Source of the DNA: Kineosporia sp. NBRC 101731
Lineage (GTDB): Bacteria > Actinomycetota > Actinomycetes > Actinomycetales > Kineosporiaceae
Reading direction: 5' to 3'
Assembly: GCF_030269305.1 (NCBI RefSeq)
Contig: NZ_BSTC01000001.1
Coordinates: 881,467 to 945,466, forward strand
DNA length: 64,000 nt
The position numbers were made by a program, and so were the translations under genes. The notes under the pieces were generated by a model, which saw nothing but the letters and a program-made list of their open reading frames with translations, was not told the origin of the DNA and searched no databases. Positions 1-58,760 of this stretch are shown here, piece by piece. Every line of letters starts with the position of its first letter. Within the stretch, counting starts at the first letter, position 1.

Positions 1-26
1 CTTCCGGATATGACGAAATCTGGAAG

Positions 27-725: not shown

Positions 726-727
726 CT

Positions 728-934: not shown

Positions 935-1347
935 TCGCACGGTACATGGCTGACACGAGTGCAAATGCGCGCATTCGACACCAACCAGTTGAGGACAGGC
1001 TCGCTCCGCTGATCGACCGCTATCTCGTGGCTACGTGCGCGGTTCTCAATCTGGAAGCCTTATTTTCGGCACGTAGCCCGGTAGAGTACGAGCAGATTTG
1101 GAACTGGCGGAATAGTATTTTCGAGTACGTCGACACTGATGAAAGTTGTATGCAGCGAGCACAAGAGGTGCAGCGTATTTTGGCCGAGCGCTCGTCGCAT
1201 CGCGTCAAACTGCCAGATCTAATCATCGCGGCTACGGCAGAAGCTCATTCGCTGACGTTATTGCACTACGATAAAGAATTCGACCTCATTGCTTCAGTGA
1301 CTAAACAGTCAGTCGAATGGATAGCTCCACAAGGAAGTCTCGCTTAA
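928..1347 (+). CDS. vapC: VapC-like PIN-domain ribonuclease toxin
   Basis: The 139-residue protein has the four acidic positions expected of a PIN-domain nuclease: Asp9 (in A-D-T-S), Glu43 (N-L-E-A-L), Asp97 (L-P-D-L-I-I-A-A) and Asp115 (H-Y-D-K-E-F-D). Length is typical of VapC. Family members cleave tRNA or rRNA when freed from VapB. Its start overlaps the end of the antitoxin gene; a second ATG at 946 would leave only two residues before Asp9 and is a less likely start. All catalytic positions are present, so it should be active. It ends 4 bases from the convergent kinase gene, leaving no room for a separate terminator. Confidence 0.82.
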   Translation: MVVARYMADTSANARIRHQPVEDRLAPLIDRYLVATCAVLNLEALFSARSPVEYEQIWNWRNSIFEYVDTDESCMQRAQEVQRILAERSSHRVKLPDLIIAATAEAHSLTLLHYDKEFDLIASVTKQSVEWIAPQGSLA

Positions 1348-1351
1348 AACG

Positions 1352-2374
1352 CTATTTTCCGGTTCTGGCTACTCGATCGAGCACGATACTGGCATGCGAG
1401 ATCGCTTCAGATCGCTCGTCAAATACCGCAGAGTCACCGCGAATTGCTCTGTATTTTCCGTCCCCCCGGCGGCGATCCAAACCGAAAGAACTGCGCCCCT
1501 TCTTATTGGGAAAAACCCTTGCGCGCCAGGAGTTTTGCCCATCCGCGCTAGTGCCATCCCAGGTATCCTCGCCCAAAACTTGCCAGGACACTACGGGTCG
1601 CGTCGCTTCTAAAGCATGACGCAATTCGCTAGGCGATTTGTAGCGTCGTTCGGCATTAATATGTAGGGCCTTTTTAATAACCTTCCGAAGTGGATCGTGG
1701 ACGTGCGGCAGATAACTGTCTCGCGCTGGAAAACGGCCAAGCCGGATGAGGTCTATAAGATTATCTCCCCAAGCCTCTGTGTCCATGACTGCATCACTGT
1801 TTACTAGACGGTGCAGCGTAACTCCCATTGCGTAAACATCGCCTTGAACACTGTCGATGTATCCAGGGTCGGCCACGGATTCGGGCGGCAGATGAGTGAC
1901 GTAACCGATTGGCGCTTCGGAAACCTGCTCCTTGCCACATGCCAAACCGAAGTCAGAAACTTTGATCGCTCCCGAGGGGGCCAGCATCAAATTCGCCGGT
2001 TTGATATCGCGGTGAAGCATGTTCCGGTTGTGGAGGAACTCAAGACCACGGCACGCATCCTCGATGGCTGATACGGCGTCCCGAACCGGGAGAGCGGACT
2101 TTCCGTAGCGATCGTGGATGCTTCCGTCCGGCAAAAACTCCATTCTGATCACAGGTACATCAAGGACGTGATCAGCGGAATATACTTGAACAACGTTCGG
2201 ATGTTCGGCAAGCGCCATAGCTTGAGCCTCTGCGAAGATACTTCGCCCACCCAAATCTTCGCCATTTTTGAGGTACTTGGCCGCGCATAGGCGGTTCAGT
2301 GCTTCATCTCGCTCAAGCCAAACTTCTCCGAAGTAGCCGCCACCGAGATACCGAATTCGTTCAAATCCTGTCAC
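1352..2374 (-). CDS. Soluble Hanks-type serine/threonine protein kinase
   Basis: The 340-residue protein carries a complete Hanks kinase core: glycine loop G-G-G-Y-F-G at 11-16, ATP lysine Lys33, helix-C Glu49, catalytic H-R-D-I-K-P-A-N at 121-128 and D-F-G at 141-143. No transmembrane helix or PASTA repeat is present, unlike the PknB-type housekeeping kinases. The last ~80 residues form a separate tail rich in Trp, Arg and Gly. The GTG at 2374 is chosen because a perfect AAGGAGG lies 4 bases before it and it overlaps the stop of the upstream gene (GTGA). The frame extends further upstream, but only into that gene. It is the second gene of a two-gene unit with the RuvC-like protein. Substrates are unknown. 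Kinases in mobile DNA often serve phage defence; that role is inference here. Confidence 0.85.
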   Translation of the reverse strand: MTGFERIRYLGGGYFGEVWLERDEALNRLCAAKYLKNGEDLGGRSIFAEAQAMALAEHPNVVQVYSADHVLDVPVIRMEFLPDGSIHDRYGKSALPVRDAVSAIEDACRGLEFLHNRNMLHRDIKPANLMLAPSGAIKVSDFGLACGKEQVSEAPIGYVTHLPPESVADPGYIDSVQGDVYAMGVTLHRLVNSDAVMDTEAWGDNLIDLIRLGRFPARDSYLPHVHDPLRKVIKKALHINAERRYKSPSELRHALEATRPVVSWQVLGEDTWDGTSADGQNSWRARVFPNKKGRSSFGLDRRRGDGKYRAIRGDSAVFDERSEAISHASIVLDRVARTGK

Positions 2375-2829
2375 GAATCCTCCTTGGGAAGGACGGCAGC
2401 GGCAACAATCACCGGATCGCGGCGAGTACTCGGCGTTTGGACGATGCAAGGGACTTGCTCTAGGGCGACTGTCAGTGCTGCTGCGGTCTTCGCTGAAAAT
2501 TTGGCACGCACAGAGGCTCCATACAGCCTGTCGCAAACGATTCCGCGACTCGTCACAGCCTCCGTTACTACACCCTCGGTCTCTGCTCGCGGCACAACAT
2601 TTCCCTTGCCAACAGATTCCGCTAGGCGCATGGAAACCCTGTCCGGCGACCAGCGCTCCAGCATCTCGTGAACCTCTCGGCGAACCCAGACCAAAGTCTC
2701 GCCACGGTCGGCCGTTTTAGGGGCTTCAACAACCCCGTGGTCTACACGCACAGCGTTTAGCCGTGTCTCGCCTTCCAGAACGGCCCAAGCGATCTTGTCC
2801 CTGCCGCATTTCAAACCTAGAACCTTCAC
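2371..2829 (-). CDS. Small RuvC/DUF3010-like RNase H-fold protein
   Basis: A protein of about 152 residues. It opens with V-L-G-L-K-C-G-R-D-K-I-A-W-A-V, which matches the first strands of RuvC-type RNase H folds (usually V-L-G-I-D-P-G), but the catalytic Asp is replaced by Lys. It ends with R-D-P-V-I-V-A-A-A-V, where RuvC has its D-A-x-x-x-A helix. The overall pattern also recalls DUF3010, a small family of RuvC relatives that lack the nuclease acids. The GTG at 2829 has a GAGAGG six bases upstream; a TTG at 2853 is an alternative giving 160 residues. It is translationally coupled to the kinase and is probably first in that operon. A nucleic-acid-sensing rather than cleaving role is inference. 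Confidence 0.5.
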   Translation of the reverse strand: MKVLGLKCGRDKIAWAVLEGETRLNAVRVDHGVVEAPKTADRGETLVWVRREVHEMLERWSPDRVSMRLAESVGKGNVVPRAETEGVVTEAVTSRGIVCDRLYGASVRAKFSAKTAAALTVALEQVPCIVQTPSTRRDPVIVAAAVLPKEDS

Positions 2830-2881
2830 CCGAACCCTCTCACCATCTATCAAGCCGCAAAGAACCGCGAAGCGGACGGAG

Positions 2882-2903
2882 AATATAAGCTACCTATAGG
2901 TAG
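2882..2903 (-). promoter_or_regulatory. Promoter with palindromic operator before the RuvC-like/kinase pair
   Basis: A perfect 14-base palindrome, ctacctataggtag, lies at 2890-2903. Next to it, on the minus strand, TATATT (2882-2887) can serve as a -10 element. The palindrome would sit between -10 and -35, where a repressor would block transcription. No regulator of this pair is identified. The RuvC-like protein or VapB could bind it. Confidence 0.4.
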
Positions 2904-3197
2904 AGGAAGTCGAAATCAGACTGCTGGCGATCGTTGCATTTGCCCCTCTTGATCCAGAAGAGAGTAATTCGGCAGTGCGCGACACTTGCTGGTGACGTCG
3001 TGCCGGGTGGCCCGTCGGGTCGGCGCCGTAGGTGCCGCATGCCCGGCGGAGCTGCCCGGCGTGGGCTCGCCATCAGTTCAGGTGCGCACTCGTTGACGCT
3101 CCGCTCTGGTGAGGCACGACCGTTCATGCGGCCCGGGTAGGTCTGGCGGCTGAGAGGTCGTCGGTAATTCGGCAACCTCACGTAAGTAGCAAAGACT
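2904..3197. other. Intergenic stretch without a convincing gene
   Basis: Between the RuvC-like promoter and the terminator of the metallopeptidase gene there is about 290 bases with no reading frame of convincing codon use. GC content rises here from the lower-GC left block to the usual high level, so a junction between pieces of different origin may lie inside. No repeat of the tRNA-Lys 3' end was seen. Confidence 0.5.
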
Positions 3198-3230
3198 GAG
3201 GTCAGGAGGCACCGCTGGCCTCCTGACCTC
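3198..3230 (-). terminator. Hairpin terminator after the metallopeptidase gene
   Basis: A perfect 13-base-pair stem (arms 3198-3210 and 3218-3230) with a 7-base loop lies 18 bases beyond the stop codon of the minus-strand metallopeptidase gene. No clear T-tract follows, as is common for actinobacterial terminators. Confidence 0.65.
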
Positions 3231-3248
3231 CTGTGCGGCCGACTGGTG

Positions 3249-4454
3249 TCAGGCTGCGTTGGGCCTGCGCAGCACGATCGGTGCGCCATCCCCGCCGAAG
3301 GTCGGACCGGCCGGCCATAGTTCGGCAAGCTCGGTCGGCGTGAGCGGGTGGTGGTAGCTGGTGCTGAGGACCTTCTTGATGGTCTCGGCGTCGGCGTGGT
3401 CACCAAGGTTCATGAACCAGTCCGTGCCGGCCGTGTACGACCACAGGTAGGAGCGCAGTAGCGGCTCGGTGCCACGGTCGGACAGCAGGTTGCCCACCTG
3501 CTCAAGCGTGAGCCACGGGGCCCGGGCCAGCACGTGTTCGGCAATGTCGCGCAGAGGGAGCTCTGCGTTGATGGCGCGGTGGACCTCGCCGCGCACGATG
3601 TGCATGTAGTGGTTGAGGCGGGCCTTGGCCATGAGTGGCTTGTTGTCCGGCTCGGTGTAGATCGGCCACGCGGTCGCCAGACCTTCCAGAAGGCTCTGGT
3701 AGGGCAGGTGCACCGTGAGCGTGCGGACCCAGTCCACGTCTTCGTTCTCGGCGGTCTGGGTGAAGCTGGAGCACTGCAACGCGTGGCCCAACAGTTCGTG
3801 CTGGGCGAAGAACCGCAGGCCGTCCTCGGTGAACACGGCCGTGCGCTGGTTGAACCGCAGCCGTGAGTGATGGCCGGAGCCGTCGACCCAGAATGACCAG
3901 TAGTCGTCGATGTCCACGACCTGCACGTCCACCGTGTACGTAGCCGTCGTCCCGGTGAGCGCGCGCACGGCGGGTTCGGCCTCGTCCGCCAGGACCTGCA
4001 CCTGGGTCGCTGCCCGCTCCAGCGTCATCGGCGTTTCGAGCTGGAAGACCTCGTCGGCGGTCTTGGGGCCCCAGCTCACGCCCAAGTCGGCGTAGGCGTT
4101 GCGGGCCCGCTCACCCAGTTCCACGACGTAGTCCTCGGACCAGCCGGCCGTGCCGCATCCCTGGGTCGCCCGCATGTAGGCATCCAGCTCGGGACGCTCT
4201 CCCAGCACACAGGACAGGTAGGCCAGGTGGGCGCGGGTGGTCTGCTCGACGTGGGTGTCCCCGTCGGCCTTGGCCTGCTGGTTCAGGGACGTCAGGCGGT
4301 CGTGGACCTCGATCCGGCTACTGGCTGGCCTGACGGGTTCGTTGGTGGGGGCGCAGTCGAAGTCGATGACCTGCCGGCCGCCGCGTGATTCCTCGTAGGC
4401 TCCCCAGGAGCGGACGAGGGATTCGACCTGGTCACGCAGTCGCACGGGGCACAT
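3249..4454 (-). CDS. Predicted cytoplasmic zinc metallopeptidase with HELLGH motif
   Basis: The 401-residue protein contains H-E-L-L-G-H at 219-224 and, about 33 residues later, L-L-E-G-L-A-T-A-W with Glu257 as likely third zinc ligand. The H-E-x-x-x-H spacing is that of dipeptidyl peptidase III (M49) rather than the ordinary HExxH of thermolysin-like enzymes. DUF885 proteins have a related HE..GH pattern. No signal peptide is seen. The gene overlaps the end of the upstream HTH regulator by 23 bases, so the two are coupled and probably work together, possibly with the peptidase acting on the regulator as in ImmA/ImmR systems. That relation is inferred from the pairing only. A strong hairpin follows the stop. 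Confidence 0.65.
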   Translation of the reverse strand: MCPVRLRDQVESLVRSWGAYEESRGGRQVIDFDCAPTNEPVRPASSRIEVHDRLTSLNQQAKADGDTHVEQTTRAHLAYLSCVLGERPELDAYMRATQGCGTAGWSEDYVVELGERARNAYADLGVSWGPKTADEVFQLETPMTLERAATQVQVLADEAEPAVRALTGTTATYTVDVQVVDIDDYWSFWVDGSGHHSRLRFNQRTAVFTEDGLRFFAQHELLGHALQCSSFTQTAENEDVDWVRTLTVHLPYQSLLEGLATAWPIYTEPDNKPLMAKARLNHYMHIVRGEVHRAINAELPLRDIAEHVLARAPWLTLEQVGNLLSDRGTEPLLRSYLWSYTAGTDWFMNLGDHADAETIKKVLSTSYHHPLTPTELAELWPAGPTFGGDGAPIVLRRPNAA

Positions 4455-11993: not shown

Positions 11994-12184
11994 ACCCCAC
12001 CCGAATCGCTCCGCTGTGGAGTGTTACAGATGTTTCCGAGTACCTCCAGGTCCCTGTGCAGACGCTGTACTCGTGGCGGTCGCAGGGCGGCGGTCCGCCG
12101 GCCCGGAAGGTGGGCAAGTACCTCCGCTACGTTCCCGAGGACGTCGTCAGCTGGGTCAACGAACTCGGGACGGAGGTGGCTTGA
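11990..12184 (+). CDS. xis: Excisionase (Xis), MerR/HTH_17 fold
   Basis: A 64-residue protein with a single winged helix: W-S-V-T-D-V-S-E-Y-L-Q-V at 9-20, a turn, then T-L-Y-S-W-R-S-Q-G-G-G-P-P-A and a wing with K-Y-L-R-Y. This is the compact HTH_17 form typical of AICE excisionases. It bends att DNA and directs the integrase towards excision. It overlaps rep (4 bases) and int (1 base), so rep, xis and int are translationally coupled and should be made together when Pra is active. Confidence 0.88.
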   Translation: MNPTRIAPLWSVTDVSEYLQVPVQTLYSWRSQGGGPPARKVGKYLRYVPEDVVSWVNELGTEVA

Positions 12185-13338
12185 TGGCGCGTCAGTCTCT
12201 GCCCCTGGGCACCTACGGGAAGGTGAAGACCTGGCAAGACGGCAGCAGCTGGATTGCCCGTGCCCAGTACCGCGATCTGGATGGGGTTGTCCGTCCGGTG
12301 AAGCGTCGGGGGAAGAGTCAGGCTGCGGCGGAGCGGTCGCTGAAAGAGGCGCTGCGGGATCGTCAGACTCCGCTCAAAGACTCGGAGGTGGCGCCTGGGA
12401 CAAAGATCGCGAAGGTCGCCGAATTGTGGCTCGCTGAGATGGAGACGTTGGTTGACGAGGGCACCCGCAGCCCAGGAACCTACGACACATACAAGTCGGT
12501 CTACGGCACCCATGTGAAGCCGGTGCTCGGCTCGCTGACGGTCCGGGAGGTGACGACGCCGGTCGTCGACCGGGTGCTGACGACGATCAAAAAGAAGTCT
12601 TCGAGCCGGGCTCGGACGGCCAAGATCGTGATCAGCGGCATCATGAAGTACGCCGCACGGCACGGTGCCGTCACGGTCAACCCGGTTCGCGAGGTCGGGC
12701 GAATTGACAGCACACCGAAGCGTCGGCCGCGGGCTATGACCGCTGCGGAGCGGAAGCAGTGGCTAGATGCGGTCGAGTCCAGTGAGAAGGCCCGGACCTG
12801 GGACCTTCCCGACCTGACGCGGATGATGCTCGCGACTGGATGCCGGATCGGAGAGTGTCTCGCGATCGGATGGTCAGACGTCGACCTTGAAGAAGAAACC
12901 GTTGACATTGCTTGGCGTCTCGTACGACGAAGCGGCGCGGGGTTGTCACGCTTGTCCTCTACAAAGACTGGGGTGAAGGGGGAGCGGCTAATCCCGCTTC
13001 CGAGCTGGGCGGTGGGCATGCTAAAGCGGCGTCGAGCGGTGATCGCACCCGAAACGGCCCCAATCTTCCCTGACTCCCTTGGGGGATGGCGCGACCCATC
13101 AAACGTACGTCGAGTGTGGCGGGAGATTCGTGATGACGCAGAAATGGGCGATTTGGTCAGCCACACCCTACGAAAGACCGTGGCCAGCTTCCTCGATGAC
13201 GCTGACATCTCGACACGCAAGATCAGTGACCAGCTCGGGCATGCCAAGGTGAGTATGACCCAAGACCGCTACCTAGGGCGACGACTGAGAGACCGCCAGA
13301 CGGCGGATGTGCTCGAAAACGTGATCGACGAGGTCTGA
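12184..13338 (+). CDS. int: Tyrosine-type site-specific integrase
   Basis: The 384-residue protein has an N-terminal AP2-like DNA-binding part (about 10-60), a SAM-like core-binding domain (about 75-175) and a catalytic domain with every expected residue: Arg221 (C-R-I-G-E), Lys261, His327-x-x-Arg330 (S-H-T-L-R), His353 (L-G-H) and Tyr363 (D-R-Y). It should therefore be active. The ATG at 12184 overlaps the xis stop; a longer frame starting at 11575 lies inside rep and is rejected. Family members insert AICEs into the 3' end of tRNA genes. The nearest candidate is the tRNA-Lys at 15491-15563, about 2.1 kb downstream, which is further than usual because the XRE-ImmA module lies between. Confidence 0.9.
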   Translation: MARQSLPLGTYGKVKTWQDGSSWIARAQYRDLDGVVRPVKRRGKSQAAAERSLKEALRDRQTPLKDSEVAPGTKIAKVAELWLAEMETLVDEGTRSPGTYDTYKSVYGTHVKPVLGSLTVREVTTPVVDRVLTTIKKKSSSRARTAKIVISGIMKYAARHGAVTVNPVREVGRIDSTPKRRPRAMTAAERKQWLDAVESSEKARTWDLPDLTRMMLATGCRIGECLAIGWSDVDLEEETVDIAWRLVRRSGAGLSRLSSTKTGVKGERLIPLPSWAVGMLKRRRAVIAPETAPIFPDSLGGWRDPSNVRRVWREIRDDAEMGDLVSHTLRKTVASFLDDADISTRKISDQLGHAKVSMTQDRYLGRRLRDRQTADVLENVIDEV

Positions 13339-13409
13339 CTCCTCCGAAGCGGACACGGCCCTGTCCCCATCGGGCCATCCTGTGACATTGGATCTACGCC
13401 GCGTAATGG

Positions 13410-13451
13410 CTTATGGTTCTGGAACCTCAACTGAGGTCTTGGAACCATAAG
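13410..13451. promoter_or_regulatory. Two-part operator upstream of the XRE-ImmA module
   Basis: A large imperfect inverted repeat: cttatggttctggaacctca (13410-13429) opposes tgaggtcttggaaccataag (13432-13451). Each arm holds its own smaller dyad around ggttc..gaacc. It lies 15 bases before the TTG start of the next gene, so a bound protein would block transcription or early elongation. The XRE-ImmA protein encoded downstream is the obvious candidate to bind it. Confidence 0.55.
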
Positions 13452-13465
13452 TCATAGGAGGTATC

Positions 13466-14182
13466 TTGTCGCAGGACCAGGAACCAGATGATGCGGACGC
13501 CGAGGAGCAGAGTGAACGGGCGCGACGAGCTCGTCTCGAAGAGCAGAACCGTCGCCTGCGTCGCTTCAACCTGGATGTCGACGTCTGTCACCAGATCAAT
13601 GGAGCTCTTTTGACGGAGTACCGGCGGGCCCCTCAGCGAGGATCTGCGGGTGGGCCTGGAAGTTACGCCTATGAGGGCGGGCTTTCGGAGCTGACGGTCC
13701 AGCTCGAAGAGCGGGGCTACGACCGGCACGATGTCGTAAATCTTCCGGTCATGGTGAGCGAGTCCCTCAAGACGGGGGTGGTCATCACTTCAGGTGACGC
13801 CTACACGGGCGTCTGGAACGCAGGAGTGATGCCAAGTACCCGTTACAGGAAGGGCGGGGTAGCTCACCATGCCATTCGGGCAAATCGAATGCCTGGGCAG
13901 GATGTAATCGGCCAGATCCTTTCTAGAGAAGAGCTGCCGCCGGTAGTGGAAGGCTTGGCTGAGCGGGTGGATCGCATCTTGGGAGGTTTCGCGCTCTATT
14001 TGTATCTTTTTCGGATCGACTGGGCGCAGTTGGAAGTTCGCAGCGAGTTTTCTCTTCCTGCTCCGAAGCAGGAGTCGGGGCATATACGACGGTTCCTAGA
14101 TCGTAATGCCATACCTCCGTATCCTATTCCTGAGGGGCGTACCCCGGATCAAGAGGCGGAGATTGATTTTGAAATTGAGTGA
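13466..14182 (+). CDS. Hypothetical partner of the XRE-ImmA protein
   Basis: A 238-residue protein starting at TTG 13466 with an AGGAGG 6 bases upstream. Residues 1-40 are highly charged (E-E-Q-S-E-R-A-R-R-A-R-L-E-E-Q-N-R) and probably form a helix. The rest is globular with no recognised motif, signal peptide or membrane helix. Its stop overlaps the start of the XRE-ImmA gene (GTGA), so the two are made together. Small proteins in this position may be toxins or effectors held in check by the regulator/peptidase. Here there is no sequence evidence beyond the coupling and the operator. Confidence 0.55.
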   Translation: MSQDQEPDDADAEEQSERARRARLEEQNRRLRRFNLDVDVCHQINGALLTEYRRAPQRGSAGGPGSYAYEGGLSELTVQLEERGYDRHDVVNLPVMVSESLKTGVVITSGDAYTGVWNAGVMPSTRYRKGGVAHHAIRANRMPGQDVIGQILSREELPPVVEGLAERVDRILGGFALYLYLFRIDWAQLEVRSEFSLPAPKQESGHIRRFLDRNAIPPYPIPEGRTPDQEAEIDFEIE

Positions 14183-15303
14183 GTGCAATGACCTTCGAAC
14201 CTGCAAGGCTTGTTTTGGCGCGGCGATGGGCCGGATATTCTGCGTCGGCCTTGGCCAAGGCCTTGGGAGTCTCGACCCAGAGCGTACATAACTACGAAGC
14301 CTCCAGGCAGTCTCCGTCTCCCTCGACGCTAGCGCAGATGTCGCAGGTTTTGGGTTTTCCGCGGGCTTTCTTTTCCATGCCGCCTGTAGACGCGGTCTCC
14401 TATGAGCAGGTCAGTTTTCGGGCTAGGACCAAGATGACTGCCAAGGCTCGAGATCACGCCTTAGGGGCCGCTGACCTGGCAGTTTCTCTGCGACTGCACC
14501 TTGAGGGGAAGTATCCACGTCTGCCGTCGGTCGACGTGCCTACCCCTGAGGGTGGGGTGGCTCCTGAGGTCGCCGCCGAGTATGTACGGGCGCGGTGGGG
14601 GTTGGATGCACAATCCCCCGCACCCAACATGGTCCACCTGCTGGAATCTAAGGGCGTTGCCGTATTTGCCGTCCCGTCGGCACATTCGAGCTTGGACGCA
14701 TTTGCATTCTGGCGCAATGAGCGTCCATACGTCTTACTCAGTACGAACAAGAGCGCTGAGAGAAGCCGATTCGATGCTGCGCACGAGTTGGGTCATTTAG
14801 TGCTTCACTCGAGCATTGACGTTGCTGGACCTGACGTTGAGCGGGAGGCTAATGCGTTCGCCTCGGCGTTTCTCATGCCCTCAAGAGGTGTAAGGCGGAG
14901 AATTCGACCAAACAGCAGCACTGAAGAAATTTTAACAGAAAAGAAATATTGGAAGGTGGCGGCGATGGCATTAACCTACCGCTTGCATGCCCTTCAGCTT
15001 CTTTCGGACTGGTCGTATCGCAACAATATTCTTGCTCTGGGGAGGCAGGGGTACCGCTCTGGCGAACCAGCGGGCATGGAACATGAGCGATCCTTGCTTT
15101 TCGCGAAGGTCTTTCTCGGGCAGTCAGGTGCACGGAATTTTAAAGAGGCGGTGGCAGCCACGAACCTCACTCCCGGCGTGATCGGGCAGCTGACGTTCGA
15201 TGTTCGACCCACTCTCGCGGCGAAGCGGCTCGAACCGACGAGCGCCCATCGAGACGAGAACGCAGTCGCTTACGCAGCCCTCCGGGTCGTGAGAGGTTCG
15301 TGA
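14179..15303 (+). CDS. XRE regulator fused to ImmA/IrrE metallopeptidase
   Basis: The 374-residue protein has an XRE helix-turn-helix at about 8-65 (S-A-S-A-L-A-K-A-L-G-V-S-T-Q-S-V-H-N-Y-E) and an ImmA/IrrE peptidase domain with H-E-L-G-H at 202-206 (His202, Glu203, His206) and a downstream R-E-A-N-A-F-A motif supplying the third zinc ligand. Such fusions sense a signal, cut a repressor or themselves, and turn on mobile-element or stress genes. The start is GTG 14179 overlapping the previous stop; ATG 14188 is equally possible. It is the last gene before the tRNA-Lys and so is probably AICE cargo next to the attachment site. The C-terminal ~90 residues are not recognised. Confidence 0.75.
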   Translation: MSAMTFEPARLVLARRWAGYSASALAKALGVSTQSVHNYEASRQSPSPSTLAQMSQVLGFPRAFFSMPPVDAVSYEQVSFRARTKMTAKARDHALGAADLAVSLRLHLEGKYPRLPSVDVPTPEGGVAPEVAAEYVRARWGLDAQSPAPNMVHLLESKGVAVFAVPSAHSSLDAFAFWRNERPYVLLSTNKSAERSRFDAAHELGHLVLHSSIDVAGPDVEREANAFASAFLMPSRGVRRRIRPNSSTEEILTEKKYWKVAAMALTYRLHALQLLSDWSYRNNILALGRQGYRSGEPAGMEHERSLLFAKVFLGQSGARNFKEAVAATNLTPGVIGQLTFDVRPTLAAKRLEPTSAHRDENAVAYAALRVVRGS

Positions 15304-15453
15304 GGGGTAGAGACGGTCCGATCTGCAACGTCGATTCTGCGGCCTGACAGCGGTTACGGTGTGGCGTCAGCCCCCTGCCGTTTGATCCTCCCCCAATCGG
15401 CCAGCTACGAACCGACCTCTGCAAAAACGTCCCAAAAGTGTCCCGAACGAAGA

Positions 15454-15484
15454 AGCAGGCCAGAGTCTGAGACTCTGGCCTGCT
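15454..15484 (-). terminator. Terminator of the tRNA-Lys gene
   Basis: A perfect 14-base-pair stem (15454-15467 with 15471-15484) and a 3-base loop, starting 7 bases past the 3' end of the minus-strand tRNA. On the plus strand it also lies 150 bases past the XRE-ImmA stop, so it could work in both directions. Confidence 0.7.
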
Positions 15485-15490
15485 CTGTTG

Positions 15491-15563
15491 TGGGCCCCCG
15501 GGGGATCGAACCCCGAACCCGCGGATTAAAAGTCCGCTGCTCTGCCGATTGAGCTAGAGGCCC
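15491..15563 (-). tRNA. tRNA-Lys, anticodon UUU
   Basis: On the minus strand the 73 bases fold into a full cloverleaf: acceptor GGGCCTC pairing with GGGGCCC (one G-U), D-arm with GCTC..GAGC, anticodon stem GCGGA/TCCGC around the loop CTTTTAA giving anticodon TTT, and a T-arm CGGGG-TTCGATC-CCCCG. The discriminator base is A and no CCA is encoded. Its 3' end faces the integrative element, which is how tRNA-targeting AICEs sit. Confidence 0.93.
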
Positions 15564-15986
15564 TTGGGACAACACTGACCCGCCCCACAGGTTAGGGCAG
15601 GGACGCCCGATCGGCAGCCGACCGGGGTGCAATCCCTCCGACAGATTACCGTGCGGTAGGCCGAATGGTTGGTCTACCCACGGGTTAGGTGCCGGATCCG
15701 GGCCAAAATCACCTTCTCGCCCGCCTCGTCCCCACCGTCAGCAACCGCAAGGCAACGCAGGGGTATCTCCCGGCAGTGCTCCGCCGGCGAAGGATACCCA
15801 GCCGCTGAGGAGTCACGCCGCAGCCTCCCCGGGCCGGGTCGGCCGCCCGCGCAGGATCCCTAAGGGCAGGTAGTTACGGCCGGGCCGGTGGTAGTGCACC
15901 GGATCTGGCTTGTTGCCATCCGGGTCCAGGTAGGTCAAGGGCTTGCTGGGCGGCGGGTTGTGCCAGATCGATCTGTAGGAACGTGG
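15564..15986. other. Intergenic region with the tRNA promoter and a possible gene remnant
   Basis: About 420 bases without an intact gene. The part next to 15563 should contain the tRNA-Lys promoter. On the minus strand, codons 15815 down to 15986 continue in frame beyond the stop of the decayed dehydrogenase and read like protein (L-D-P-D-G-N-K-P-D-P-V-H-Y-H). This may be a fragment of another or the same lost gene. Confidence 0.4.
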
Positions 15987-16361
15987 TCAGCGTTCTTTGT
16001 GCGATGCGGGGACGAGTACGACCTTGCCGAAGGCGGTGCGGGACTCGGCCAGCTCCATGGCGTCGGCCACTTGATCGAGGGGCATCCGGGCGGCGATCTT
16101 GGCGGTGATGGAACCCCTGGCGAGCAAGGTGAGGACTTCGCCCAGATCGCTTCGGACCCGGGACCGGAACGCCGTGGGCCGCAGGAGGTGGCCCGCCCAC
16201 AGGTCGTAGAAGTAGGCCTTCTTGCCGTTGGGCAGGAGGTGCAGGGCAAAGACGCGGGCGAGGTTGCCCAGGAAAGCCGGCCACAACGACCCGTCCTGGT
16301 TCATCGCTGCCGCGATGGCGTACGAGACCAGGGTTCCACCGGGAGCCAGCAGCTTCCCGCG
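15987..16361 (-). pseudogene. C-terminal remnant of a zinc/NADPH MDR oxidoreductase
   Basis: About 125 residues match the C-terminal half of medium-chain dehydrogenases/quinone reductases: L-L-A-P-G-G-T-L-V-S-Y from the Rossmann fold, then A-R-M-P-L-D-Q-V-A-D-A-M-E-L and F-G-K-V-V-L-V-P at the end. A full protein would have about 320-340 residues. The N-terminal catalytic half and the first part of the nucleotide-binding domain are missing. The frame runs upstream into the GGDEF-EAL gene, where the sequence is no longer MDR-like, so the break is next to that gene's stop codon. It is probably not functional. Confidence 0.7.
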
Positions 16362-51230: not shown

Positions 51231-52376
51231 ATGACCGACAGACAGTATCCGCCGCGAAGCGCCGGTGACCACGGATCGACGACCGCTCATCACGGGCGGG
51301 ATCCCGGGCCGGTCGGCGAGACCGAAGAACCGAAGAAGCCCAAGCTCCCCGTCAACGTCATCCAGGTCAGCGCCAGTGCGGGTGCTGCGGTGACCTCCGC
51401 CATCGCCGCCTCGTACTTCGGGGTCGGTGGCACCATCGCGGGCGCCGCGTTCGGGTCCGTCGTGTCGACGGTGGCCGGTGCTTTCTACAGCGACACTCTG
51501 GGTAAGGCGCACAAGGTCGTCGCGACCACGACTGCCGTTGTCGTGCAGCGATTCCCGGGTGACATGCCACAGGCCGAGAGCATTCACCGGATGAACGGCC
51601 CGGCGGGGCTGCCGGTCGCCGACTCGCTGAACCGGGTGGGTTCCGAAGACACCCGTCACGTCGACGTCGAGCACATGCAGGTGCCGATCAACGACGAGAC
51701 CCAGGTGATGAACCCGGTCGGCGACGATGCTACGCGGATGATGCCGCCGGTCACCGGCGCGGGTGGCAACCCGTCGTACCAGCAGCACACGCGCGTGCAG
51801 GGGGCTTATCAGCCGCAGGCCGAACACCGCTCCCAGACCTACCGGGCGTCGGGTGCTGCCGGTCGCGCGAGTGCCCGCCGGGCTGAGCCGCAGGAGCAAA
51901 TCTGGTGGAAAAAGCCGGGTTTCCTGCTGACCGGAATCTCCCTGGCCGGCTTCCTGATCGCCCTGGTCGTCATTCAGGGTACGGAAACCGCTATCGATCG
52001 ACCGCTTTCGGGTGGTAAGAAAGGCACCACCACGATCAGCAAGTTCGTGAACAGCGACAGCACGGACGACGACACCTCCACCCCGACCGAGTCCGCTACC
52101 CCCAGTGAGGCCGTCACCCCGACCGAGTCCGCCGCGCCGACCGCGACCGACAGCGAGACGGTGGTCCCGACCGAGACCGTGGCGCCGACCGAGACGGTGG
52201 CGCCGACCGCCACCGACACCGCTCCCGACACGGGTAGCGGCGACGTGCAGCCGACCGACCAGACGCAGAGCACCGACGCCCCCACCGACGGCAGCGCCGA
52301 CGGTAGTGCTGACGGCAGCGCCGACACCGGTGACGCCGGTGCCGACGCCCAGGTGCAGGAGCAGAGCACGCCCTGA
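51231..52376 (+). CDS. Membrane protein with Thr/Pro-rich C-terminal tail
   Basis: The 381-residue protein has a charged N-terminus, a Gly/Ala-rich hydrophobic stretch (about 46-85), a Gln/Arg-rich loop (about 95-220), one good transmembrane helix (about 226-248) and then ~130 residues rich in Thr, Ser, Pro, Asp and Glu, which should lie outside the cell. Such tails are often glycosylated or form spacers in the wall. I do not recognise the family. It precedes the peptidase-ABC gene by 94 bases in the same direction. Confidence 0.55.
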   Translation: MTDRQYPPRSAGDHGSTTAHHGRDPGPVGETEEPKKPKLPVNVIQVSASAGAAVTSAIAASYFGVGGTIAGAAFGSVVSTVAGAFYSDTLGKAHKVVATTTAVVVQRFPGDMPQAESIHRMNGPAGLPVADSLNRVGSEDTRHVDVEHMQVPINDETQVMNPVGDDATRMMPPVTGAGGNPSYQQHTRVQGAYQPQAEHRSQTYRASGAAGRASARRAEPQEQIWWKKPGFLLTGISLAGFLIALVVIQGTETAIDRPLSGGKKGTTTISKFVNSDSTDDDTSTPTESATPSEAVTPTESAAPTATDSETVVPTETVAPTETVAPTATDTAPDTGSGDVQPTDQTQSTDAPTDGSADGSADGSADTGDAGADAQVQEQSTP

Positions 52377-52470: not shown

Positions 52471-55233
52471 TTGGCCGCCCGATTACGCTCCCGCCGGATC
52501 CTGCTGCCGCTGCTCTTGGTGGTGGTGCTCGCCATCTGGTTCGCCGGGGCCCGCGCCGGTTCCTCCGAGGCCGGCTTCACGCAGCAGAACCTCCAGGTCA
52601 GCGGCACCCCCGAGAGCGACGGTGACCCGGTCGACCTGGACGCCACGCTCTATCTGCCCGAACGCACCCCGGCCCCCGCGGTGCTGCTCGCCCACGGTTT
52701 CGGCGGGAGCAAGGCCAGCGTCGTGAGTGATGCCGAAGACCTCGCCGAGCGTGGCTACGTGGTGCTCACCTACAGCGCTCGCGGGATGGGTTCCTCCGGC
52801 GGGCTGATCCACCTCGACAGCCCGGACTACGAGGTGAAGGACGGGCAGCGGATGCTCGACCAGCTCGCCGGGCGTCCTGAGGTGCAGACCGACCGCAGCG
52901 GTGACCCGGTGGTCGGCGTGGTCGGTGCCTCCTACGGCGGCGCGCTGGCCCTGATGCTCGCGGGCACCGACGACCGGGTCGACGCGATCGTCCCGATGAT
53001 CACCTGGAACGACCTGCGGCAGGCCCTGTTCCCACAGCCCACGAAAACCGGCGGGACCGGCGTCTTCAAGAAGCAGTGGACGGCCTCGCTGCTCGGCTCC
53101 ACGCTGATCGGATCCGGGGGTTCCCTGGGCACCACACCGTCGGCCGACCAGCTGAAGAACCTCGCCGAGGGCGACACCCAGCAGGCCCTGTGCGGGCGCC
53201 TGGCCGAAGACCTCTGCCAAGGCTACGTGCAGACCGCGACCACCGGCGAGCCCACGGCCGACCTGCTCGACCTGCTCGGGAAGTCCAGCCCGGCGCGGGT
53301 CGCCTCGAAGATCACCGTCCCGTCGCTGCTGATCCAGGGGCAGCAGGACTCCCTGTTCCCGCTCTCCGAGGCCGACGCGAACGCCCGGGCCATCGCGGCG
53401 GCGGGTGGCGACGTGAAGCTGTACTGGGACACCGGCGGGCACGACGCGGGCTTCGACACCGAACCACTGCGCCCCGTCGTGGCCGATTTCCTCGACTCCG
53501 CGCTCTCGGGGGGTTCGCTCGCCGGCACACCCGGTTTTCAGGTCGAGGTGGCCTCCGGTGCGCTCGCCTCCGACACCACCGCACCTACCTCCCAATTGAG
53601 GACGTCGACGCTGGCACCGGGGGTGCCCTCACGGGACGCGTCGGGTCGGGTCCGGGAGAGCAGCGCCCCGCTCACCCAGCTGAAGCTGAGTGGCGCCGGT
53701 CAGTTCGCCCTGGCCCCGCCCGGTGCGACGCCCGCGGCCATCACCTCGCTGCCGGGAGCCGGGGCGTTGCTGAGTGCGCTGGGGTCGACCGGTTCTTCCC
53801 TCAACCTGAACGCTCTGCCCGGTGAGTCGGCGACGTTCCAGACCGAGCCGCTGACCCGGGCCCTCACCGTCACCGGCTCGCCCCGGGTGACGGTCGGCAT
53901 CGCCTCGTCCGCGAAGGAAGCCACCCTGTTCGCCTCGGTCGTCGACGTGGACGAGGACGGCGGCACCACTCTTCCCTCGCAGCTCGTCGCGCCGATCCGG
54001 GTGACCGGACTCGGCGCCGGCTCGACTCAGGATGTGACGATCGACCTGCCCTCGGTGGTGCGGGACATCCCGGCCGGCCACCGGCTTCGGGTGGTGCTGA
54101 GTACCACCGATCAGGCCTACGCCATGCCCCAGGAAGCGCGCCTGTATCGGGTGTCCCTGGCCGGCGACGGGATGCTGACGATCCCGCAGGCCCGGTTCAC
54201 GGTGACCGACGCCGGTTCGGCGGTGCCCTGGGGCGGCGTGATCGGTGTGGCCGGTGGGGTGGCCCTGATCCTGCTGCTGTTCCTCGTCCTCCATCGACGC
54301 AAACTCAGTGGGAAACCCGACGGGACACTGACCGACACACCCATCGCGATCGAGGGGCTGGGCAAGGCCTACGGTGACGGGTTCCGCGCGGTCAGCGACC
54401 TGAGTTTCCGGGTCGAACGGGGCCAGGTACTGGGGCTTCTCGGCCCGAACGGCGCCGGTAAGACGACCACACTGCGCATGCTGATGGGCCTGATCCTGCC
54501 CTCGGAGGGGCGTATCCGGATCTTCGGCCACGAGGTGCGGCCCGGGGCTCCGGTGCTGTCGCGGCTGGGTTCGTTCATCGAGGGCCCGGGATTCCTGCCG
54601 CACCTGTCGGGCCGCGACAACCTGTCCCTGTACTGGCGTTCCACGGGGCGCACGGCCGATCCGTACCTCGAGGTGGCGCTGGAGATCGCCGGTCTGGGCG
54701 ACGACGTGGACCGCAAGGTGCGCACCTACAGCCAGGGCATGCGGCAGCGGCTGGCCATCGCCCAGGCCATGCTCGGCCTGCCCGACCTGCTGGTGCTCGA
54801 CGAGCCCACGAACGGGCTCGATCCGCCGCAGATCCGCGAGATGCGCGAGGTGCTCGGCCGTTACGCGGCCACCGGACGCACCGTGGTGGTGTCCAGCCAC
54901 CTGCTCGCCGAGGTCGAGCAGTCGTGCAGTCACGTGGTCGTCATGGCCGCCGGGCGGCTGGTGGCCCACGGACGCGTGGACGAGTTGGTCGGTGACGGCG
55001 CGTCGGTCACGGTCGAGGTGGACTCGCTGTTGAAGGGGGCCGAGGTAGCGAAGGCGGTCGCGGGGGTGGACGAGGTCCGCGTCGTCGACGGAGTTCTCGT
55101 CGTGCGCGCCGACCTGCAGGCTCGCGCCGACCTGGTGCGGGACCTGGTGCTGGCCGGGGTCGCGGTCTCCCGGGTGGCGCCGTCGCGCGGCCTGGAAGAG
55201 ACGTTCCTGGCTCTGGTGGGGGAGGAGGCCTGA
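52471..55233 (+). CDS. Fusion of S15/X-Pro-type peptidase and ABC transporter ATPase
   Basis: The 920-residue protein begins with a signal-anchor helix (about 6-24) and an alpha/beta-hydrolase domain (about 45-340) with H-G-F-G-G near 72 and G-A-S-Y-G-G, nucleophile Ser154. It continues with a beta-rich segment like the X-Pro peptidase C-terminal domain (about 350-570), a membrane helix (about 583-608) and an ABC ATPase (about 620-850) with Walker A G-P-N-G-A-G-K-T at 658-665 and V-L-D-E-P-T-N-G near 776. The hydrolase lies outside and the ATPase inside. TTG 52471 has AGGAG upstream. The permease gene follows with a 1-base overlap. Confidence 0.75.
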   Translation: MAARLRSRRILLPLLLVVVLAIWFAGARAGSSEAGFTQQNLQVSGTPESDGDPVDLDATLYLPERTPAPAVLLAHGFGGSKASVVSDAEDLAERGYVVLTYSARGMGSSGGLIHLDSPDYEVKDGQRMLDQLAGRPEVQTDRSGDPVVGVVGASYGGALALMLAGTDDRVDAIVPMITWNDLRQALFPQPTKTGGTGVFKKQWTASLLGSTLIGSGGSLGTTPSADQLKNLAEGDTQQALCGRLAEDLCQGYVQTATTGEPTADLLDLLGKSSPARVASKITVPSLLIQGQQDSLFPLSEADANARAIAAAGGDVKLYWDTGGHDAGFDTEPLRPVVADFLDSALSGGSLAGTPGFQVEVASGALASDTTAPTSQLRTSTLAPGVPSRDASGRVRESSAPLTQLKLSGAGQFALAPPGATPAAITSLPGAGALLSALGSTGSSLNLNALPGESATFQTEPLTRALTVTGSPRVTVGIASSAKEATLFASVVDVDEDGGTTLPSQLVAPIRVTGLGAGSTQDVTIDLPSVVRDIPAGHRLRVVLSTTDQAYAMPQEARLYRVSLAGDGMLTIPQARFTVTDAGSAVPWGGVIGVAGGVALILLLFLVLHRRKLSGKPDGTLTDTPIAIEGLGKAYGDGFRAVSDLSFRVERGQVLGLLGPNGAGKTTTLRMLMGLILPSEGRIRIFGHEVRPGAPVLSRLGSFIEGPGFLPHLSGRDNLSLYWRSTGRTADPYLEVALEIAGLGDDVDRKVRTYSQGMRQRLAIAQAMLGLPDLLVLDEPTNGLDPPQIREMREVLGRYAATGRTVVVSSHLLAEVEQSCSHVVVMAAGRLVAHGRVDELVGDGASVTVEVDSLLKGAEVAKAVAGVDEVRVVDGVLVVRADLQARADLVRDLVLAGVAVSRVAPSRGLEETFLALVGEEA

Positions 55234-56138
55234 TGCCCGCGACCGGTCATTCGGAAGGGCTGGAGCACCTGCCCCCGCCCTCAGATGTGGTGTCACCCGA
55301 CGGTTCCGCACCGGGTTACAGCGCCCGGCGCACCCTCGGCCTGCGGGTCGAGGCCCGGCGTCAGCTCACCCGGCGGCGCACCCAGATCTCGCTCGGTTTC
55401 CTCGTCGTGCTGCCGTTCATCCTGGTCGCCGCCTTCAGTTTCGGTGAGCCCGGCAACGGCAACCCGCAGACCGCCCTCGTCGACCTGGCCACCAGTGGCG
55501 CCGCGAACTTCACGGTCTTCACGCTGTTCGTCAGCTCGGGCTTCCTGCTCGTCGTGATCGTGGCCCTGTTCGCCGGCGACACCGTGGCCAGCGAGGCGAG
55601 CTGGTCGAGCCTGCGCTACCTGCTGGCCGTCCCCGTACCCCGTTCCGTGCTGCTGCGCCGGAAACTCACGGTGGCGCTGGGGTATTGCCTCTTCGCCCTG
55701 GTGCTGCTGCCCGCCGTGACCTATCTCGTCGGTGGGGTCTTCTACGGCTGGTCACCCCTGAAGACCCCGCTCGGCGGAACCATCGAGGGCTCGGAACTGG
55801 CTGTGCGACTGGCGATCGCGGTCGGCTACATCGCGGTGTCCCTGCTGTTCGTGGCCGCGCTCGCCTTCCTCGTCGGGGTCTACACGGATGCTCCGCTGGG
55901 TGCCGTGGGCGGTGCCGTGATGCTGGTGATCCTCTCCAACATCCTTGACTCCATCACGGCTCTCGGCGACTGGCGGCGTTTCCTGCCCACCCACTACTCC
56001 CTTGCCTGGACCGACGTCCTCAGTTCCGAACTGATCTGGAATGCCATGGTGAGAGGCGCACTTTGGTCGATCGGGTACAGCGCGGTGCTGCTCGCCTGGG
56101 CCTGGTGGCACTTCGATCGCAAAGACATCACGAGCTGA
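55233..56138 (+). CDS. ABC transporter permease of the peptidase-ABC fusion
   Basis: The 301-residue protein has about six hydrophobic helices (about 55-72, 95-115, 145-165, 190-212, 218-238, 275-292) and a charged N-terminus. This is the ABC-2/exporter type of permease with no binding-protein partner, which suggests export. It overlaps the fusion gene by one base (TGATG), so both are made together. The transported substrate is unknown; it may be a peptide cut by the external hydrolase domain. Confidence 0.75.
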   Translation: MPATGHSEGLEHLPPPSDVVSPDGSAPGYSARRTLGLRVEARRQLTRRRTQISLGFLVVLPFILVAAFSFGEPGNGNPQTALVDLATSGAANFTVFTLFVSSGFLLVVIVALFAGDTVASEASWSSLRYLLAVPVPRSVLLRRKLTVALGYCLFALVLLPAVTYLVGGVFYGWSPLKTPLGGTIEGSELAVRLAIAVGYIAVSLLFVAALAFLVGVYTDAPLGAVGGAVMLVILSNILDSITALGDWRRFLPTHYSLAWTDVLSSELIWNAMVRGALWSIGYSAVLLAWAWWHFDRKDITS

Positions 56139-56255: not shown

Positions 56256-58760
56256 GTGCCCTCGAATAACACCACTGCGGCGACGAAGCCGGCCGGCGAC
56301 CGGGTCGCCCGGCCGGTGCCGAAGCGCACCTCCACCCCGAAGCGAGCTGTGGCCGCGGCGAAGTCGGCCGCCACCCCGCGGAGCACGGCCCGCCCGGCGG
56401 CGAAGAAGACCTCCACCCCGCGCCCGGCCACCCGGCCGGTTGCCGCGAAGAAGACTGCTCGCACGACGACCACCTCGCGCCGGACGACCGCATCGGGTGC
56501 GACATCCACCCGCCGGGCCGTCACCCCCAGGACCACGACCCGCAAGGCAGCGGCCACCACGGCCGCGCCCGCGCCAGCGACCACAGCTGCGAAGAAAGCG
56601 ACGACGGCGCGCTCGGCCGCGAAGACCACGACGGCCAGGCCGGGGAGCAAGGCGCCGGCGACGAAGAAGGCCACTGCCACTACGCGTTCGGTTGTCAAGA
56701 CGTCTGCGGGCAGGGCAGCGACGGCGAAGAAGACGGCAACGGCGAAGAAGACCGCAACGAAGACCGCGACGGCAACGAAGACGGCGAAGAAGACGGCGAC
56801 GAAGGCTGCGACGGCGAAGAAGACCGCAACGAAGGCCGCGACGGCAACGAAGACGGCGAAGAAGACGGCGACGAAGGCTGCGACGGCGAAGAGGACCGCG
56901 ACGGCCGCTAGCCCGACCGCTCGTAAGGCAGCAAGCACCCGTCCCGTCAAGCAGGCAGCGGTCAAGAAGACCGTCTCCAAGGCTGCTGCGAAGAAGACGG
57001 TCACGCCGCGTTCGGCGGCGAAGCCGTCAGCCACGAAGCCGACCACGCGGAAGGCAGCGACCACTCGTCCCGCGGTGACGACTACGCGGAATGCAGCGGG
57101 CGCGCGTCCGGCGGCGACGCGCAAGACGGCGAGTACGCGTCCGGCGACGACGCGGAAGACAGCGAGCACGCGCCCGGCCGCCCCGGCGACGGCGAGGAGC
57201 ACCCCCGGCTCGGCAGCGAAGACCGCGCCGAGAAAGACCACTGCGACGCGAGCTGCGACGAAGACCGTCGTGAGGAAGACCGCCACGACTCGTCCGGCAG
57301 CGAAGTCGGCGGCAGCGAAGTCGGCGGCAGCGAAGACGGCCGCAGCGAAGACCGCGGCAACGAAGACCGCGCTGAGAAAGACCACTGCGACGCGAGCTGC
57401 GACGAAGACCGTCGTGAGGGAGACCGCCACGACTCGTCCGGCAGCGAAGACGCCGGCAACGAGGACGGCTGCACGGACTCCTGCGGCCCGGAAGACCGCC
57501 GCTCCACGCGTAGCGGCGAGGACGTCTACCCCGCGTGCGTCGGCCCAGAGGACCACGCGTTCGACGGCGACAGCGGCGGCCGGCAAGACGGTCACATCGC
57601 GTCCGGCCGCCAAGACGGCGACGGCGAAGAAGATGCCCGCGACGCGTCCGGCCGCCAAGATGGCGACGAGGAAGACATCCGCCACTCGTCCGGCCACGAA
57701 AGGGCCGGTGAGGAAGTCGGCCCCGGCGCGTCCGGCTGCGAAGACAGCAGCGGGGAAGACCGCCACCGCGCAACGATCCGCTCAAGCAGCTGTCACGAAG
57801 TCGGTCACGACGAGTCCGGCGGTCAGGACCGCGACAAAGAGGACGACTACCACGGGTTCTGTCGCGAAGGCCCCGACGAGGAAGACGGCTACCAGGAAAA
57901 CAGCCACCACGGGTCAGGCCACCCAGGCTACGGCCGGGAAGCCCTCTTCATCCCGTTCGGCGATGAAGACCGGCGGCGGAAGGGCCACCGGCGCTGCGAG
58001 TCGGACCGCCAGGAGCACGGCCGGGAAGACTGCCTCATCCCGTTCGGCGGTGACGACTGTTGCCAGAAAGACCGACGCCGCACGTCCTGCTCCGCGCAAG
58101 ACCGACGCCACGGGTCCGGCCACGAAGGACGCGAGCACCGGTCGTCCGTCGGTGAAGTCATCCACCGCCACACCGGCCTCGGCCGGGACGGTTGCCAAGA
58201 GGTCAGCTTCGGCCGGGACGGTTGCGAAGAGGTCGGCCTCGGTCGGGACGGTAGCGAAGCGGTTGTCCAGGCCAGCAACCGTCGCGAAGAGGTCGGCCTC
58301 GGCCGGGACGGTTGCCCAGCGCTCGGCCTCGTCCGGGACGGTCGTCAAGCGGTCGAGCACGGCCTCGTCGACCGGTCCAGGCACGACCACCGCGAACACG
58401 ACGGCGAAGGAGGCCTGGTCCCCGGCCGTGGCCACGCCCGACATCTCCGCCATGCCGGAGTCCACGACCATGCCGGTGCAGCGGACCGTTCCTGAGCCGA
58501 CCCCGGCGGCCGTCTCCGTAGAACTGGCCTCGGATGATCGGCCCTCCAGGTCCTGGCCGAACCCGATCACCTCGCCGACCGCCACCGCGGGGGTGCATGC
58601 CGCCGAGACCGGTACCGCATCGTCGGGTGACGCCACCGCTCCGTCCAGCACCTCGTCCTCCCGGCAGATCGCACCGGACCGTTCGGCCCGGGAGAGCACT
58701 ACACAGGAGGACGTACGGGACGCACGGGAACAGGAATCAGAGAGAGTTCCGAGCGCCTGA
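56256..58760 (+). CDS. Histone H1-like Lys/Ala/Thr-repeat protein
   Basis: An 834-residue protein built almost wholly of Ala, Thr, Lys, Arg, Ser and Pro. Residues 1-490 hold many K-K-T-A-T and K-T-A-A-K units. DNA-level tandem repeats occur at about 56710-56900 (unit with K-K-T-A-T-K) and a near duplicate at about 57225-57300 and 57360-57440. Around 58180-58350 there are seven S-A-S-A-G-T-V-A-K-R type units. The last 100 residues are less basic. GTG 56256 follows AGGAGGCACA. Histone H1-like tails bind DNA; that is the likely role. The length could vary between strains. Confidence 0.65.
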   Translation: MPSNNTTAATKPAGDRVARPVPKRTSTPKRAVAAAKSAATPRSTARPAAKKTSTPRPATRPVAAKKTARTTTTSRRTTASGATSTRRAVTPRTTTRKAAATTAAPAPATTAAKKATTARSAAKTTTARPGSKAPATKKATATTRSVVKTSAGRAATAKKTATAKKTATKTATATKTAKKTATKAATAKKTATKAATATKTAKKTATKAATAKRTATAASPTARKAASTRPVKQAAVKKTVSKAAAKKTVTPRSAAKPSATKPTTRKAATTRPAVTTTRNAAGARPAATRKTASTRPATTRKTASTRPAAPATARSTPGSAAKTAPRKTTATRAATKTVVRKTATTRPAAKSAAAKSAAAKTAAAKTAATKTALRKTTATRAATKTVVRETATTRPAAKTPATRTAARTPAARKTAAPRVAARTSTPRASAQRTTRSTATAAAGKTVTSRPAAKTATAKKMPATRPAAKMATRKTSATRPATKGPVRKSAPARPAAKTAAGKTATAQRSAQAAVTKSVTTSPAVRTATKRTTTTGSVAKAPTRKTATRKTATTGQATQATAGKPSSSRSAMKTGGGRATGAASRTARSTAGKTASSRSAVTTVARKTDAARPAPRKTDATGPATKDASTGRPSVKSSTATPASAGTVAKRSASAGTVAKRSASVGTVAKRLSRPATVAKRSASAGTVAQRSASSGTVVKRSSTASSTGPGTTTANTTAKEAWSPAVATPDISAMPESTTMPVQRTVPEPTPAAVSVELASDDRPSRSWPNPITSPTATAGVHAAETGTASSGDATAPSSTSSSRQIAPDRSARESTTQEDVRDAREQESERVPSA

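Follow-up and report, generated by a model that had tools for sequence, protein, structure and literature searches.

What would join a serine hydrolase to the ATPase of a transporter in one polypeptide? The question is raised by a locus of Kineosporia sp. NBRC 101731, in a stretch of 64,000 nucleotides (contig NZ_BSTC01000001.1, positions 881,467 to 945,466 of the forward strand; this whole stretch is called the window and is numbered from its first letter). Here one chain of 920 residues joins an S15-type hydrolase, a PepX_C domain and a complete ATP-binding cassette (ABC) ATPase, an arrangement that our analysis confirmed, and the gene of a permease follows directly. We propose that the two genes encode an ABC-2 exporter whose ATPase subunit bears its own extracellular hydrolase, which would act on the cargo; we give this reading a probability of about one half. 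The argument rests on the following features.

52471..55233, plus strand: fusion protein of 920 residues with a TTG start, in the order helix, alpha/beta hydrolase, PepX_C, helix, ABC ATPase
52486..52557, plus strand: N-terminal hydrophobic helix, residues 6-29, signal anchor or cleavable signal with basic residues upstream (hydropathy, AlphaFold)
52621..53376, plus strand: Peptidase_S15-type alpha/beta hydrolase, residues 51-302, with nucleophile Ser154 and acid Asp293 (Pfam)
53191..53217, plus strand: region of the cysteine pair C241...C249 (CGRLAEDLC), probable disulfide (alignment)
53440..53442, plus strand: His324 of the catalytic triad, in GGHD (alignment)
53815..54135, plus strand: PepX_C beta-sandwich, residues 449-555 (Pfam)
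54229..54291, plus strand: second transmembrane helix, residues 587-607, followed by basic LHRRKLSGK (hydropathy, AlphaFold, alignment)
54394..54813, plus strand: ABC ATPase core (ABC_tran), residues 642-781 (Pfam, alignment)
55233..56138, plus strand: ABC-2 type permease of 301 residues with about six helices, its start overlapping the fusion stop in TGATG (Pfam, hydropathy)

Architecture and sidedness of the chain

The reading frame of the fusion measures 925 residues from stop to stop and opens five codons before the TTG, so there is hardly any space for an earlier start. Pfam matched Peptidase_S15 (expect value (E) 2.5e-18), PepX_C (PF08530; E 3.4e-13, 50.4 bits against a cut-off of 22.5) and ABC_tran (E 4e-29). 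Ser154 lies within the nucleophile motif GASYGG, of the GxSYGG type, and the ATPase has its Walker A motif at residues 658-666, its signature at 753-760 and Walker B from 773, with the H-loop His810 just past the end of the ABC_tran match. The AlphaFold model of the full chain reached a mean predicted local distance difference test (pLDDT) of 87.3 and a predicted template modelling score (pTM) of 0.67. The open reading frame and the Pfam matches bear out an earlier note on this DNA, which had described a single chain with this domain order, these coordinates and Ser154 as nucleophile; the adjoining permease in overlap, which it also reported, is likewise there, the permease ATG sharing one base with the fusion TGA. 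That note had counted one membrane helix and overlooked the N-terminal one; there are two.

Hydropathy, at a threshold of 1.6, placed helix 1 at residues 9-27 (2.38) and helix 2 at 589-607 (2.81), and the AlphaFold model extends them to 6-29 and 587-607. A further peak at 147-165 (1.75) was rejected as a membrane helix, since the model shows a core strand (148-153) and a helix (155-166) there. We aligned the 115 best matches to the window hydrolase (the window, 34 from other genomes and 80 named loci), a set that favours fused proteins and holds 112 distinct rows, three row pairs being the same gene from two collections. Helix 1 exceeded the threshold in 113 of the 115 rows and helix 2 in all of them. 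The mean net charge before and after helix 1 was +4.24 and -0.81, and before and after helix 2 it was -0.17 and +1.9, so the flanking charges of both helices suggest the order inside, outside, inside. With two helices, and with an ATPase that is necessarily inside, the hydrolase should face the opposite side, hence the outside. Helix 1 itself may serve as a signal anchor or be cleaved off as a signal, with ARA-GSS read from the letters at its end.

The cysteines point the same way. The hydrolase part in the window has just two, C241 and C249, and the pair is kept in 115/115 rows; none of 41 further fusions had one of them replaced singly by another residue (L190 has a gap at the first). Cysteines that are kept jointly and lost jointly give the pattern of a disulfide, and since disulfides form outside, a probable C241-C249 bond argues for an external hydrolase. 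Moreover, among 14 unfused relatives of about 600 residues each, 11 exceeded the hydropathy threshold near the N-terminus and 13 had the cysteine pair. Taken together, the placement of the hydrolase outside and the ATPase inside is well supported by signals in the sequence, namely the two helices, their charges, the cysteines and the signal-like N-termini of the unfused kin. The earlier note had proposed this topology and had named a cytoplasmic hydrolase as the outcome that would overturn it; as far as sequence tells, these same signals disfavour a cytoplasmic enzyme.

Recurrence of the fusion and its pairing with the permease

The gene is present in 6/6 genomes of the genus. Within the class, 107 of 296 sampled genomes had a match (E 1e-20), and at least 72 of the 296 had the fusion. 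These 72 comprise 30 genomes (the present one included), another 39, G030 and G067, and G078. The group of 39 includes L188 (genome G237) and L190 (G257), where the front hydrolase part of the fusion gene is not in the same open frame, through either sequencing error or decay. As for the other matched genomes of the class, 10 had an unfused relative only, 17 had no fusion (G285 and G135 among these being cut by a contig end), and eight (G038, G056, G073, G089, G103, G124, G236 and G287) stand outside the tally. In a phylum sample, 36 of 296 genomes had a match (1e-30), and six loci outside the class (L143-L147 and L149) were also fused to the ATPase. Named holders include Streptomyces, Micromonospora, Actinoplanes, Pseudonocardia, Lentzea, Rhodococcus, Geodermatophilus and an Acidimicrobiales metagenome-assembled genome, and at least 582 relatives, fused or not, were confirmed. 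Such recurrence rules out chance or misassembly as the origin of the fusion, and the intact key residues rule out a decaying gene. Small genomes had suggested the idea of a core, essential function, which was dropped: in one genus with genomes of 1.3-1.4 Mb a match was found in 5/61 (in G348 in two pieces on two contigs).

The permease accompanies the fusion. Of the 115 loci, 113 are fused and the other two are cut by a contig end; in all 111 fused loci with enough flanking DNA a permease lies on the strand of the fusion, its distance not being enforced. An in-frame permease start overlaps the fusion stop in 71 of 110 other loci, by four bases in 65 and by one in six. In the window the permease matched ABC2_membrane_4 (PF12730; 31.2 bits, cut-off 27) and ABC2_membrane_2 (PF12679; 29.9 bits, cut-off 27.2), with hydrophobic peaks at residues 52, 95, 152, 195 and 226 and a weaker sixth at 271 (1.23). 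Over 3003 pairs of loci, mean pairwise identity was higher for the ATPase (0.73) than for the hydrolase (0.53) or the permease (0.54); hydrolase and permease identities correlated at r 0.92, and each correlated with the ATPase at 0.86. The excess of the first value over the second may be a weak hint, at the level of sequence, of a shared substrate.

These observations bear on a simpler account, in which the ATPase chain would do no more than anchor a general surface esterase or peptidase, the two activities being unrelated or merely co-regulated. The unfused relatives speak for it: with their signal-like N-termini and, in most, the same catalytic motifs, they indicate that the enzyme can work alone. 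Against it, no complete locus among the 115 best matches (a set that, as said, favours fused proteins) lacks the link, which recurs in the six loci outside the class, and hydrolase and permease diverge together. We consider a mere tether improbable.

A split version of the system was sought as well. None of the 14 unfused loci had an ABC frame, and one separate ABC frame (L202) was found among 18 further loci without the fusion. Two of these 18, L165 and L199, run into a contig end and so leave the matter undecided, and L210 is an extra copy in a genome that also bears the fusion. In a quick tree of 45 rows (duplicate rows L141 and L148 left out), 13 of the 14 unfused rows grouped in one starred clade, placed among fused rows that are divergent. 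The remaining one, L129, sits apart on a very long branch, so that the fused or unfused label needs two changes. An origin by one fission and an origin by one fusion are both possible.

Two further frames flank the pair. Directly upstream of the fusion is a gene of 381 residues (51231-52376, plus strand) with hydrophobic stretches and a tail rich in Thr, Pro and Glu, which matches no Pfam family; a gene of this kind stands immediately 5' of the fusion in 5/5 congeneric relatives, and within the genus it may belong to the same operon. On the 3' side of the permease, an 834-residue frame (56256-58760, plus strand) is rich in Ala, Lys and Thr and of histone-H1-like low complexity; its coding strand is uncertain, since long frames are open on the opposite strand too.

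Active sites and the type of hydrolase

The triad S154-D293-H324 is present in 115/115 fusion rows, in 94/94 rows after thinning to below 90% identity, and in seven of seven further fused rows (L142-L147 and L149), six of which come from outside the class. For the 80 named loci, the presence of D293 follows in part from the scan, since it belongs to one of the two patterns used; S154 and H324 are absent from both patterns. In the ATPase, K664, S754, G756, D777, E778 and H810 are kept in every row that reaches them (113 or 114 of 115). An incomplete triad, which the earlier note had named as the other result that would count against it, was thus not what we found.

Its term peptidase fared less well. 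Folded alone, the hydrolase part reached a pLDDT of 88.7 and a pTM of 0.90, and a comparison with solved structures, in which the matches span both hydrolase domains, placed a lipase and a cocaine esterase closer than the X-Pro peptidases. The closest structure was the lipase PaL (8yzn; similarity score Z 31.8, 2.8 Å, 453 residues aligned), followed by cocaine esterase CocE (4p08 and 1l7r; Z 27.4, 3.0 Å, 474 and 476 aligned), the X-Pro dipeptidyl aminopeptidases 6nff (Z 25.8, 3.4 Å, 450 aligned) and 1lns (Z 25.3, 3.5 Å, 453 aligned), and the alpha-amino acid ester hydrolase 1mpx (Z 25.1). The last three scores differ little from one another and from those of single-domain esterases that the comparison also listed. 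PaL came first in a search with a sequence profile, too (E 5.6e-32); no paper on its structure was among the matches listed in a search of the open PubMed Central (PMC) literature.

With this group of enzymes the fusion shares the two-domain fold (S15-type plus PepX_C) and the GxSYGG nucleophile motif. PaL, CocE and the X-Pro enzymes are without an ABC domain, whereas in the fusion a membrane helix stands on either side of the enzyme and the chain runs on into an ABC ATPase, and the CGR...C cysteine pair sets the enzyme apart from them further. The fold alone leaves the substrate undecided, so release of X-Pro dipeptides is not to be inferred from the order of the structural matches. From model and sequence, the bond cleaved could be that of an ester, a lipid or a peptide, with peptidase activity one option and not the leading one. 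The S15 family does include cocaine esterases, and so esterases too, according to the part of PMC11878206 available to us.

Transport, gating or protection

How, then, might the two halves work together? We favour an exporter that would be assembled from two copies of the fusion chain and two of the permease. Inside the cell, ATP hydrolysis would drive the permease to export a small hydrophobic, acylated or peptidyl compound, the direction being that expected of the ABC-2 class. On the exit side, the tethered serine hydrolase would then cut an ester or amide bond in the cargo, whether to remove an acyl group, to cleave an ester or to trim off an N-terminal residue, and the cut would release, activate or inactivate the cargo and block its return. 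That the hydrolase acts on the cargo of the transporter is our inference. An acylated or lipid-like cargo is a guess from sequence kinship, based on the ATPase relatives ABCA, NosF and Rv1218c and on the lipase that is the nearest relative of the enzyme. The ATPase best matches the ABCA lipid transporters (ABCA3/4/7), and it also matches NosF and Rv1218c, the match to the latter, which is named a multidrug efflux ATPase, covering almost the full length.

The locus shares with the ABC-2 exporters DrrAB, Rv1217c-Rv1218c, NosFY and ABCA a complete ATPase with a C-terminal extension and an ABC-2 permease. We know of no extracellular enzyme on the ATPase chain in those systems, and to our knowledge it is unusual for an enzyme to be attached to the ATPase and not to the permease. 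With NosDFY the likeness extends to the NosF-like ATPase; no NosD domain was found in the fusion or the permease, and the neighbouring genes were examined through single representatives. Peptidase-containing ABC transporters of the C39 type also unite a protease and an exporter in one chain and process their cargo. Theirs is a cysteine protease on the cytoplasmic side, whereas the fusion has a serine hydrolase outside; Pfam, searched up to E 1, gave no C39 match and assigned the peptidase-like domain to S15. A partial precedent is the Myxococcus protein Q1D520 (Transporter Classification 3.A.1.145), in which an ABC-2 exporter is likewise linked covalently to a hydrolase of the peptidase type: the available part of PMC3924187 describes an ABC-2 permease fused to an M1 aminopeptidase, and its authors suggest that this protein exports an amino acid, an amino acid derivative or some metabolic product of amino acids. 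There a zinc peptidase stands at the C-terminus of the permease, and in the fusion a serine hydrolase stands at the N-terminus of the ATPase.

No study of the fusion was among the matches listed in searches of the open PMC literature (subscription papers and preprints were outside the scope), nor is it mentioned in the available parts of PMC2605481, PMC6593405 and PMC6767563. In an annotated Tsukamurella plasmid record the fusion bears the name 'alpha/beta fold hydrolase', and the gene after it is called 'ABC transporter permease'. The architecture is thus already in databases, under a partial name that hides its ATPase half.

The likeness to efflux ATPases could instead point to self-protection, in which the pair would export an antimicrobial or a toxic ester and the outer hydrolase would destroy it. 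In keeping with this, the ATPase resembles drug-efflux types, Rv1218c among them, and the drrA and lantibiotic-protection models head its NCBIfam list. These models lie below cut-off, as do all of the 25 best of 213 NCBIfam matches, and among the conserved neighbours we saw no obvious partner gene for biosynthesis or resistance. We regard this account as very unlikely.

The neighbourhoods of 78 named loci and of the window, 1079 genes in all, were clustered (L052 and L096 were dropped, no main gene being called there), with genes of fewer than 90 residues uncalled and each cluster named from one representative. With the simple gene caller used, the fusion was counted at 78 loci and the permease at 52. 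Recurring neighbours were a divergent TerC gene (30 loci) and genes for a RES-domain protein (27), a winged helix-turn-helix protein (26), an S9 peptidase (24), a PALP enzyme (23) and UvrB (22); they look like plain chromosomal synteny. The S9 gene, of the prolyl-oligopeptidase-like type (for example L085:6366-8297), precedes the fusion by two to four genes and is on the opposite strand in 23 of its 24 loci. In the window itself, positions 1-4000 and 12001-16000 have G+C contents of 0.570 and 0.607, against 0.66-0.73 in the remaining 4-kb blocks, and are possibly foreign DNA.

Several of our results weigh against an exporter that processes its cargo. The search for peptide substrates near the loci in relatives, which the earlier note had recommended, was run and returned no conserved cargo, peptide or biosynthetic partner gene of at least 90 residues, although a shorter peptide gene could escape this clustering. 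Patchy presence, as in the small-genome genus, implies a dispensable function. An overlapping permease start was not seen in 39/110 loci, the permease had no convincing sequence match to a solved structure (best E 0.1), and the identity correlations largely reflect common descent. As to topology and catalysis, helix 1 falls below the threshold in 2/115 rows and in 6/41 further rows, helix 2 in one of those 41 (1.59), and the N-terminal segment in the remaining three of the 14 unfused relatives (near it, at 1.43-1.58). S154 is unmatched in 2/41 further rows (L188 and L190, whose front part lies outside the frame). Both cysteines are replaced together in 3/41 further fusions (L155, L173 and L179), which share one genus code, retain the triad residues and may reflect a single event.

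Alternatively, nothing may be transported. In a MacB-like mechanism, the binding and hydrolysis of ATP would open, close or reposition the extracellular hydrolase through the helices, much as MacB-type systems spend energy from the cytoplasm on work outside, a principle of mechanotransmission treated in the available part of PMC5985334. A single helix ties the hydrolase directly to the ATPase and not to the permease, which is odd if the enzyme merely has to be placed at the exit; NosF is among the closest solved bacterial ATPases, and the failure to find a conserved cargo gene fits as well. The permease, on the other hand, matches ABC2_membrane families only, with no MacB- or FtsX-type domain among its Pfam matches up to E 1, and the joints that flank helix 2 (residues 581-586 and 606-613) have pLDDT below 50, which suggests a loose link and not a rigid lever. 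We hold this alternative to be unlikely. Somewhat less likely still is an ATP-driven extracellular enzyme in which the cytoplasmic ATPase would mechanically gate the attached hydrolase through the one helix and the permease, without export of cargo; if it were true, the energy state of the cell would control hydrolysis at its surface.

Looking forward, if the locus encodes a cargo-processing exporter, as we favour, it would represent a widespread actinobacterial machine that unites transport with extracellular processing, and the covalent link would mark the two as belonging together. S154, E778 and a knock-out of the permease would provide separate handles on hydrolysis, ATP use and transport. 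A large family, of which the confirmed relatives include fused and unfused proteins, would thereby gain a testable function.

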